A stretch of 64,000 nt of DNA from Edaphobacter acidisoli. Lineage in GTDB: Bacteria > Acidobacteriota > Terriglobia > Terriglobales > Acidobacteriaceae. The DNA lies in assembly GCF_014642855.1 (NCBI RefSeq), contig NZ_BMJB01000001.1:2480001-2544000 (forward strand). Reading direction: 5' to 3'. Position 1 is the stretch's first letter. Each line of letters starts with the position of its first letter. Positions 49,836-52,598 of this stretch are shown piece after piece. The position numbers were made by a program, and so were the translations under genes. The notes below the pieces were generated by a model. It ran no database searches. It was not told where the DNA came from and saw nothing but the letters and a program-made list of their open reading frames with translations.

Positions 49836-50447
49836 TCAGGCTTCGATGGCAGCAGGAGGATTTGAGGCAGGTGCGGCCGGAGCTGGAGCTGGCTTCTTGG
49901 GAGCCGCTTCGCTCTTTTTGCCCGGAGCAAGGATGGCGTGGAGCGTGGTGCCCTCCATGCGTGGCATGAACTCGACGACGGCGGCTTCGCCCAGGTCGCC
50001 GATGAGACGGTTGATGATCTTGTAGCCCAGGTCGCGGTGGGCCATCTGACGGCCCTTGAAGCGCAGCGAAGCCTTGACCTTGTCGCCTTCCGTCAGGAAG
50101 CGCAGGGCCTGGTTCTTCTTGGTCTGGTAATCGTGCTCGTCTACCGTGACCGAGAATTTGACCTCTTTGATGGTGATGACCTTCTGCTTCTTACGCGCGG
50201 CACGCTCGCTCTTGTCCTTCTCGTAGAGGAACTTGCCGTAGTCCTGGATCTTGCAGACGGGCGGGACGGCGTTTGGGGAGATCTCGACGAGGTCGAGTGA
50301 ACGTTCGCGAGCGATCTTCAGTGCCTCGAAGGGAGCCATGACGCCAAGCTGTTCGCCATTCTCGTCGATGACGCGGACTTCGCGTGCGCGAATACGTTCG
50401 TTGGTGCGGATAAAAGACTTTGCGGAGCGTTTGTCGATTGGTGGAAT
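49836..50447 (-). CDS. infC: Translation initiation factor IF-3
   Basis: IF-3 binds the 30S subunit and checks the start codon-initiator tRNA pair. The C-terminal domain has KEVKFSVTVDEHDYQTKKNQ, KASLRFKGRQMAHRDLGY and VVEFMPRMEG; the N-terminal domain has TNERIRAREVRVIDENGEQL. The first ATG in frame (50339) would remove 36 residues, including the conserved TNERIRAREV block. Reading upstream, an ATT at 50447 follows GGAGG after six bases and yields a full-length protein of 203 residues. AUU is the known autoregulated start of infC in enterobacteria, so I choose it. rpmI and rplT do not follow. The tail is Ala/Pro-rich. Confidence 0.9.
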   Translation of the reverse strand: MPPIDKRSAKSFIRTNERIRAREVRVIDENGEQLGVMAPFEALKIARERSLDLVEISPNAVPPVCKIQDYGKFLYEKDKSERAARKKQKVITIKEVKFSVTVDEHDYQTKKNQALRFLTEGDKVKASLRFKGRQMAHRDLGYKIINRLIGDLGEAAVVEFMPRMEGTTLHAILAPGKKSEAAPKKPAPAPAAPASNPPAAIEA

Positions 50448-50645
50448 AAGTCGCCTCCACAGCGGAGTTCATCTCCGCCATGCCTGGTTAAAATTTGATG
50501 CGCGAACCCCTGACTACGGAGCCACCGCGCCGTAAGGTGAAGTATAGCACCAGTGACAACGCCGTATTTTGACGGTGAAAGCCTTTGGCGTTCGTTGCAG
50601 CTATGCTGTATGGTGACTTGCAAACCGCATCGAGGAGTTTTCGTA

Positions 50646-51603: not shown

Positions 51604-51690
51604 GCCGAAGTGGCGGAATTGGCAGACGCGCATGGTTCAGGTCCATGTATTCGCAAGGATGTGGGGGTTCGAGTCCCCCCTTCGGCACCA
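51604..51690 (+). tRNA. tRNA-Leu (anticodon CAG)
   Basis: GCCGAAG/CTTCGGC is the acceptor stem, with GCGG...-type D arm, anticodon arm CATGG-TTCAGGT-CCATG with CAG, a long variable arm typical of Leu tRNAs, T arm GGGGG-TTCGAGT-CCCCC, and encoded CCA. 87 nt. The 3' 22 nt are repeated at 52535-52556, marking an integration site. Confidence 0.96.
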
Positions 51691-51735
51691 GAGATTAGTT
51701 GTTTGCTGTGAATGGGATAGGAAGCAAATCGAAAA

Positions 51736-51759
51736 ATACGTGTGTGGGATACGTGTGTG
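51736..51759. repeat. Tandem ATACGTGTGTG repeats near the left end of the element
   Basis: ATACGTGTGTG occurs at 51736-51746 and 51749-51759 (13-bp period). Similar GCGTGTGTA and ATACGTGTGTT units lie at 52433-52452 near the right end. They may be arm-type recombinase sites. Confidence 0.5.
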
Positions 51760-51821
51760 AAGTCGGTTCTATCTCACGACATAAATTCAGTTACACGCTC
51801 TAAAAACTTGGGGCGGTTAGT

Positions 51822-52082
51822 TTATTCGACTTCTGTCCAATCTTCTGCGATCAAATCGACCATTGATGGCGACCATGTGCCTATCGTTCCGTCCGCACCA
51901 CACATGTCTATGTGCGGGCGATACTCTACCTCTGTACCTGCTGGGAAGAACTCGTTGAGCGGTTCGCGGCTCACCTCGAACTTGCTACCTGGCACCAAAA
52001 ATACATACCGGGCGTTCTTCCATTCGGTACGCCCAATGCGCTTGCCCGCCTTGATAGCGTCAAGGGCTTTTGAAAAATCCAT
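51822..52082 (-). CDS. DUF2829 protein, Tad2-like anti-Thoeris family
   Basis: Protein of 86 residues. MDFSKALDAIKAGKRIGRTE, WKNARYVFLVPGSKFEVSRE, GTEVEYRPHIDMCGADGTIG and PSMVDLIAEDW match the DUF2829 pattern over its full length, including the REP...FPAGTE...PHIDM block. In phages, this family includes Tad2, which blocks the Thoeris defence system by sequestering its cyclic ADP-ribose signal. Ligand-binding ability here cannot be proven from sequence. The gene lies within the tRNA-Leu-bounded element, as expected for phage cargo. No ribosome binding site is visible before the ATG at 52082. Confidence 0.82.
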   Translation of the reverse strand: MDFSKALDAIKAGKRIGRTEWKNARYVFLVPGSKFEVSREPLNEFFPAGTEVEYRPHIDMCGADGTIGTWSPSMVDLIAEDWTEVE

Positions 52083-52172
52083 TTAAATGTTGTGTAGTAC
52101 CCCAAGTTTTCAAAGGACGAACCTAACTTAATCAAAGCATATCCATGCGGTATTGCAAGTACACTTATCCCC

Positions 52173-52427
52173 ATGCACTGGCTGAAAGATAATGTGTACC
52201 TGGCGAGCTGGCTTGCAATTCCGGTCGCGTTGATCGGGATGGTTTATCAAAACCGAGGTAAGACGAGTGCCGAGGTAGATTGGAACCGTTCGCTTCTCTA
52301 TATCGCTTTTCTGGTCGCGCTCGCGGCGGCGTTCACGCCGATATTCGATACTTCAGCAAGAACGACCGCGGGTCTGCTCGTGTCCATGCTGATTCCATTT
52401 CTCATTATTGATCGCAAGCCACGCTGA
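52173..52427 (+). CDS. Small membrane protein in the tRNA-Leu element
   Basis: Protein of 84 residues with about three hydrophobic segments (LASWLAIPVALIGMVY, SLLYIAFLVALAAAF and TTAGLLVSMLIPFLII) separated by short charged loops, ending in DRKPR. No ribosome binding site precedes the ATG; the short AT-rich stretch TACACTTATCCCC upstream could mark a leaderless start. It is divergent from the Tad2-like gene with 90 bp between starts. Holin-like or membrane-sensor functions are possible, but no family is recognised. Confidence 0.55.
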   Translation: MHWLKDNVYLASWLAIPVALIGMVYQNRGKTSAEVDWNRSLLYIAFLVALAAAFTPIFDTSARTTAGLLVSMLIPFLIIDRKPR

Positions 52428-52534
52428 ATCCCGCGTGTGTAATACGTGTGTTAATACCGCGTAAGTGCCGTTTTTCGCGTTTCGTGCGGCTCGTGTTTTC
52501 TGTAACTTACGTGTTTTCAGTGAGCCTCGATAAA

Positions 52535-52556
52535 TCGAGTCCCCCCTTCGGCACCA
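52535..52556. repeat. Displaced 3' end of tRNA-Leu (att repeat)
   Basis: Exact 22-bp copy of the last 22 bases of the tRNA-Leu gene at 51669-51690, in the same orientation, with differing bases immediately on both sides. This is the distal attachment-site copy. Confidence 0.85.
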
Positions 52557-52571
52557 AGTGATTCCAATGAG

Positions 52572-52590
52572 ATGAGCACCCGTGTGGTGC

Positions 52591-52598
<8 letters not shown>
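52572..52598 (+). terminator. Rho-independent terminator, probably original to tRNA-Leu
   Basis: ATGAGCACC and GGTGCTCAT form a perfect 9-bp stem around CGTGT, followed by TTTTCTG. It lies 15 bp after the displaced tRNA 3' end, where the terminator of an uninterrupted tRNA-Leu gene would be. Confidence 0.85.

Follow-up and report, generated by a model that had tools for sequence, protein, structure and literature searches.

A tad2-like gene in a putative integrase-less mini-element at a tRNA-Leu gene of Edaphobacter acidisoli

Introduction

Among mobile DNAs, a 2024 review describes MITEs and CALINs as hitchers that have no integrase or transposase of their own (PMC11389934). The mini-elements considered here resemble both of them (PMC11389934) in being short and enzyme-less and in using, as we suppose, the recombinase of another element; however, MITEs are gene-less and use transposases, and CALINs combine attC sites with the integron integrase, whereas for the mini-elements a phage-type tyrosine integrase is presumed. 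The closest integrated relatives are the CIMEs and the tandem ssrA islands of Dehalococcoides (PMC3146451), which share with the mini-elements att sites at both ends, the lack of integrase and transfer genes, and tandem arrays at tmRNA. CIMEs adjoin ICEs or IMEs, and the Dehalococcoides ssrA islands use serine recombinases (PMC3146451); unlike either, the mini-elements are ~1 kb long, carry tyrosine-integrase attP arms, and are found in 21 genera and at several tRNA targets. PICMIs (PMC10803314) and the tmRNA islands I23, I44 and I55 (PMC12595487) are likewise small or helper-dependent. PICMIs belong to the phage satellites and have a reduced gene set (PMC10803314). The tmRNA islands, flanked by direct repeats at the tmRNA 3′ end, have putative defence genes as cargo, but they are far larger and have their own tyrosine integrase (PMC12595487), which the mini-elements lack. 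In the open-access literature we met no account of a recurrent family of integrase-less elements of ~1 kb that bear tyrosine-integrase arms, and such a class may be described elsewhere.

Phages have small accessory genes, tad2 among them, that are found singly in unrelated genomes, which raises the question of how they move alone. The locus compared here with the above systems lies in a 64,000-nucleotide stretch of the Edaphobacter acidisoli genome (contig NZ_BMJB01000001.1), the whole of which is referred to as the window.

Results

The insert at tRNA-Leu(CAG)

The features of the tad2-like locus are given below in window positions.

51604..51690, plus strand: tRNA-Leu (CAG), the integration target, intact (ARAGORN)
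51669..51690, plus strand: left att core, which is the tRNA 3′ end, TCGAGTCCCCCCTTCGGCACCA; 22-nt perfect direct repeat
51739..51761, plus strand: left (P) arm, tandem arm-type repeat CGTGTGTGGGATACGTGTGTG, ~48-49 bp from the core
51803..51813, no strand: inverted repeat, left arm AAAACTTGGGG, 11 bp, bracketing the tad2 slot
51822..52082, minus strand: tad2-like gene (PF11195), an ATG ORF of 86 aa spanning exactly these positions
52100..52110, no strand: inverted repeat, right arm CCCCAAGTTTT, bracketing the tad2 slot
52111..52172, no strand: conserved intergenic block between the divergent ORFs, 75-84% identical to its counterpart in L064, L051 and L120
52173..52427, plus strand: ORF of 84 aa, small, hydrophobic and membrane-type, divergent from tad2
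52427..52533, plus strand: right (P′) arm region, GTGTGT-N5-GTGTGT (52435-52451) and then a conserved ~80 bp to the core
52535..52556, plus strand: right att core, a displaced copy of the tRNA 3′ end, same 22-nt repeat
52569..52597, plus strand: terminator hairpin GAGCACCCGTGTGGTGCTC-TTTTT, directly behind the right core

The original prediction had placed the gene in a tRNA-bounded insert, and the boundaries proved exact to the base: the 22-nt repeats at 51669-51690 and 52535-52556 are spaced by 866 bp (shuffle expectation 0.00), and the 4.2-Mb genome contains only two copies of this core, both at the window element. A counterpart of the tRNA-Leu(CAG) with 97-98% identity is present in most genomes of the genus, and in one congener (G017, locus L021) an equivalent hairpin stands directly behind the intact tRNA, marking an empty site; the hairpin at 52569-52597 is the terminator that originally belonged to the tRNA and was moved away from it when the element inserted. 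With the tRNA 3′-end repeat on both sides, an intact tRNA and a relative with the empty site, the insert has the features of an integrative element, and it shares with CIMEs the att sites at both ends and the lack of recombinase and transfer genes. Only tad2 and the 84-aa ORF lie between the 22-nt cores, and no integrase is encoded. Close to either end of the element lies a tandem repeat, CGTGTGT...ACGTGTGT, that resembles the arm-type sites of a lambda-type integrase. As in a lambda-type attP, arms are found on both sides, about one helical turn apart, in the same manner as in an integrase-bearing phage; read from the sequence, this layout at both ends is the anatomy of an attP with its P and P′ arms.

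The block at 52111-52172 is probably the promoter region of both divergent ORFs, and a search for a sigma-70 promoter within it gave no convincing match. The 84-aa ORF has relatives in 5 more genomes of the bacterial family, and in one case the relative lies 180 bp from a tRNA-Val. When the DNA of the 866-bp element was compared with plasmids and phages, no match was obtained beyond the tRNA itself.

Upstream of this locus in the window, the ATG ORF of infC (IF-3; 49836-50468, minus strand) lacks the first 25 profile positions, and the open frame runs on upstream (IRTNERIRAREVRVIDENGEQLGVMA), which suggests the usual non-ATG start of this gene.

The Tad2-like protein

The 86-aa protein had been predicted to match DUF2829 from end to end, and it does so: residues 1-85 align with the complete PF11195 profile (Tad2-like, DUF2829; positions 1-73 of 73) at E 2e-19 and 70.3 bits, against a curated cut-off of 25. 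The plus strand over 51822-52082 is non-coding. The nearest solved chains are 8v3e and 9eib, both of ModTad2 (E 2e-16), with further matches to the solved Tad2 proteins SptTad2 (1e-7) and SPO1 Gp34.65 (1e-5); identity amounts to 33 of 83 residues with ModTad2, 27 of 83 with SptTad2 and 23 of 82 with SPO1 Tad2. ModTad2 has reportedly been examined in connection with type II Thoeris (His-ADPR). Six Tad2 sequences were aligned, namely the window protein, the three with solved structures and two relatives found here; 12 residues are invariant (F3, A6, K11, G13, R18, W21, W70, S73, D76, A79, D81 and W82), and the window protein has lost none of them. Tad2 tetramers hold two gcADPR molecules in pockets between protomers, and a long insertion confers CDN binding (PMC12043709). 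An insertion of ~9 residues is present in SptTad2 and missing from the window Tad2, so CDN binding is less likely for the latter. An AlphaFold model built on the 86-aa protein and one relative (two sequences) had a pLDDT of 41 and was discarded.

The window had been said to hold no Thoeris genes; extended to the whole host genome, a search with the ThsB TIR profile PF08937 gave no match either, and because of this the beneficiary of the tad2 element need not be this host. PADLOC gave no match for the two genes of the element. The protein might have the Tad2 fold with some other job, for example an AcrIIA7-like one or the binding of DNA or protein, in which case the cargo would not be anti-Thoeris, a reading compatible with the mini-element model set out below. 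The missing ThsB TIR would fit such a job, and PF11195 relatives do include 9kzr, deposited as AcrIIA7, and 8kbi, deposited as an inhibitor of type II CRISPR-Cas; but the closest solved relatives are Tad2 proteins, ModTad2 foremost (E 2e-16), and the residues invariant among the compared Tad2s are retained, and we consider another job rather unlikely.

The distribution of the gene was then compared at several levels. The window tad2 is the single PF11195 match in the host genome and the only Tad2 relative in the genus (1/62 genomes; absent from the 61 other species), and within the bacterial family such relatives were found in 5 of 300 genomes. The best relative found is a 77% identical Tad2 on an IMG/VR viral contig, near terminase-region genes, and by this relationship the window tad2 gene is of phage ancestry. 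A search for close relatives of P0001 among genome contigs yielded only a distant 28% match. Measured against phage satellites (PICI, P4 and PICMI), the window element showed no integrase of its own and no capsid- or packaging-redirecting ORF. PICMIs carry an integrase.

The presence of the gene in only one of 62 genus genomes points to a recent or transient acquisition. It also weighs on the original view of an anti-defence gene kept by the host, here taken to mean a chromosomal Tad2 that serves the host and lies in an insert which has lost its mobility. The gene is indeed intact and stands alone in a bacterial chromosome, but its absence from the 61 other species and its rarity in the family (5/300), the intact att and arm sites around it and the position of its nearest relative on a phage contig make a host-kept gene very improbable.

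The mini-element family

When the insert was compared with other loci by BLAST, three of its parts turned up again beside tmRNA or tRNA ends elsewhere: the right end, the intergenic block and the 3′ flank of tad2. One element of this kind, L064 (1.38 kb, at tmRNA), carries another tad2 (28/84 identical) along with two further genes, and L051, which measures 1.13 kb and sits at a tRNA-type end, carries three small ORFs that are unrelated. The right end was modelled from sequence alone (R1; 110 positions, five sequences), and the R1 match to the window right end (89 bits, E 4e-26) is to one of these five. At E 1e-3, R1 matched in 46 of 300 family genomes, belonging to 21 of 79 genera. Outside the family R1 is rare: a scan of 396 genomes drawn from the phylum added just three, of which two had two matches each; in G449, outside the family, the two R1 copies form a tandem spaced by 912 bp with a tRNA-Ser-type core. 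Almost every R1 match led to a tmRNA- or tRNA-type 3′ end within 0-20 bp.

Both core copies were found for seventeen elements, which measure 610-1404 bp including the cores (median 911) and have a GC content below that of their flanks; neither of the two tested integrases showed similarity to any of the 17. The targets are the 3′ ends of tmRNA, tRNA-Ser, tRNA-Leu and similar genes, the cargo differs, and some elements stand in tandem (L105, G449). Similar ends were found at different targets with different cargo. The window genome itself has a second mini-element at tmRNA (L098, G000:C1:1118358-1119301, 923 bp). The arms of L098 are of the GTAC class and those of the window element of the GTGTG class, and with this difference L098 would need another integrase than the window element.

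The arms of the family were then compared in sequence and position. The right arm consists of two hexamers 11 bp apart, of the classes GTGTGT, GTACYY, GTGCAA and GTGCTA. Its two copies within one element agree in 88% at the four variable positions, compared with 44% on shuffling and a maximum of 69% in 20,000 rounds (n=38, with fixed alignment columns and elements treated as independent). The left arm is a tandem repeat with 11-bp spacing at +47 to +52 from the core (+26 in L120), and its class equals that of the right arm in all 15 of the 15 elements readable at both ends. The distance from the right arm to the core was 99-104 bp in all measured cases.

Several other loci were recorded beside this family. 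L113, in which KatG and Fur lie between two tmRNA-type repeats (3.3 kb), was left out of the mini-element count. Longer putative ORFs in some elements (e.g. L098, L121 and L127) may be antisense and were left uninterpreted. Four larger elements with an R1 right end (L102, L107, L112 and L116) have a common module of two TraD-like P-loop ATPases and a replication-relaxation-like protein, as judged by eye. L103 and L111, also with an R1 end, carry a gene resembling one with homing-endonuclease-associated repeats (HNH_repeat; the profile comparison covered L103); this cargo is of another kind than tad2.

Prophages with matching arms

Two independent prophages, likely helpers of the mini-elements, were found to have ends of this type together with an integrase. 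The first is a prophage of ~52 kb at tRNA-Met on contig C67 of G273, with portal, major head and tape-measure genes (PHROGs), att cores at both ends and an R1 arm at its right end; its 360-aa tyrosine integrase, P0002, starts inside the left arm region, beside the left core. The second is the 51.6-kb IMGVR_UViG_3300050119_000364, which is bounded on either side by a tRNA-Met core like that of the first and has an R1 arm at the far end and, beside the left core, an integrase 69% identical to P0002. In both prophages the distance to the core is 47 bp for the left arm, with its 11-bp spacing, and ~102 bp for the right one, which is the geometry of the mini-elements, and both belong to the GTAC class.

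The window genome yielded no P0002-like integrase at a threshold of 1e-10, and its ten other integrase-domain matches are distant from P0002; the mini-elements would on this account need an outside enzyme. A helper with an integrase of the GTGTG class, that of the window element, was sought and not found. R1 had no match on three other viral contigs with P0002-like integrases or on the phage contig of the 77% identical Tad2, all of which may be fragments. Strict arm patterns gave no exact match in viral contigs, and such patterns are too strict because the arms vary. One candidate helper was rejected: a 41-kb insertion in the same tRNA-Leu of a congener (L047/L048, G035:C1:1003300-1045500), with an integrase at its left end, at whose right end R1 fails. 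This insertion is apparently a prophage with its own integrase, and its different right end marks the tRNA-Leu as a hot spot used by unrelated integrases.

A further feature common to mini-elements and prophage is the cargo slot: an inverted repeat, TGAAAACTTGGGGC...GCCCCAAGTTTTCA, 11-14 bp long with its arms 280-316 bp apart, flanks the first cargo gene of the window element and of several others. The same inverted repeat surrounds different cargo in L117, L118, L125, L064 and the G273 prophage (L144), and in L064 it shows a paired change, GGAGC/GCTCC. The slot of the G273 prophage holds another gene, the C-terminal region of which resembles the cargo of the mini-element L099. Pairing at mRNA ends, an operator and a recombination boundary are candidate roles of the repeat. 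In the same prophage, a 395-aa protein (L144, 11357-12544) adjoins the integrase, and its C-terminal part matches the TIR effector model PDLC00733 (PADLOC) at E 5e-9, which would put a defence-type gene close to the inverted-repeat slot.

The likeness to prophages raises the alternative that the mini-elements are dead prophage remnants that have lost all between the arms save a moron gene or two, with the att ends surviving. An internal prophage deletion could in principle yield the same geometry, and the identical arm geometry of prophages and mini-elements, the inverted-repeat slot that the prophages have in common with them, and a decayed integrase following one copy (L122/G280) agree with such an origin. 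It does not readily account, however, for 17 elements from many genera that converge on 0.6-1.4 kb with co-varying arms at both ends, for tandem arrays (L105, and G449 with its 912-bp spacing), for similar ends at different targets with different cargo, or for two elements of different arm class in the window genome. Remnants are an improbable explanation, and movement as mini-elements is the reading that we follow.

Discussion

On the present sequence evidence, the window region 51669-52556 is likely to be a non-autonomous mini-element that is moved in trans by a phage tyrosine integrase and carries Tad2 as anti-defence cargo. The tad2 gene lies in an 866-bp integrase-less insert with arms at both ends, and the insert belongs to a widespread family with ends like those of temperate phages, which argues for hitch-hiker cargo and not for a domesticated gene. 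The circular form of the element would be 866 bp long and consist of an attP together with a cargo of one or two small genes, in this case tad2 and that of a small membrane-type protein. In this attP, the core would be the tRNA-Leu 3′ end, with the P arm ~48 bp away on one side and the P′ arm ~100 bp away on the other. The enzyme would come from outside: a tyrosine integrase, most probably that of a temperate phage group with the same arms, would bind the tandem arm sites and act in trans to recombine the core with a tRNA or tmRNA 3′ end, by which the target gene would be restored. Within the carrier, Tad2 would act as a sponge that sequesters the signal nucleotides made by a TIR protein (Thoeris), and the carrier cell or a phage would be relieved of that defence. 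The action of the integrase in trans, excision, the route of cell-to-cell transfer and ligand binding by Tad2 are steps that we infer.

More tentatively, and with rather less confidence than we place in the mini-element itself, the family may be a phage-integrase counterpart of integron cassettes, that is, circles of ~1 kb, each with attP arms and a gene or two of the anti-defence or another moron type, which temperate-phage integrases would insert at tRNA or tmRNA ends. Such circles might stack in tandem, be excised together with prophages at the same site, and constitute a swappable pool of phage genes such as tad2.

Island finders that rely on an integrase beside a tRNA will readily overlook mini-elements, which have none. 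If the proposed reading is true, cassettes of ~1 kb, dependent on nothing but a phage integrase borrowed from elsewhere, would directly answer how such lone genes move.
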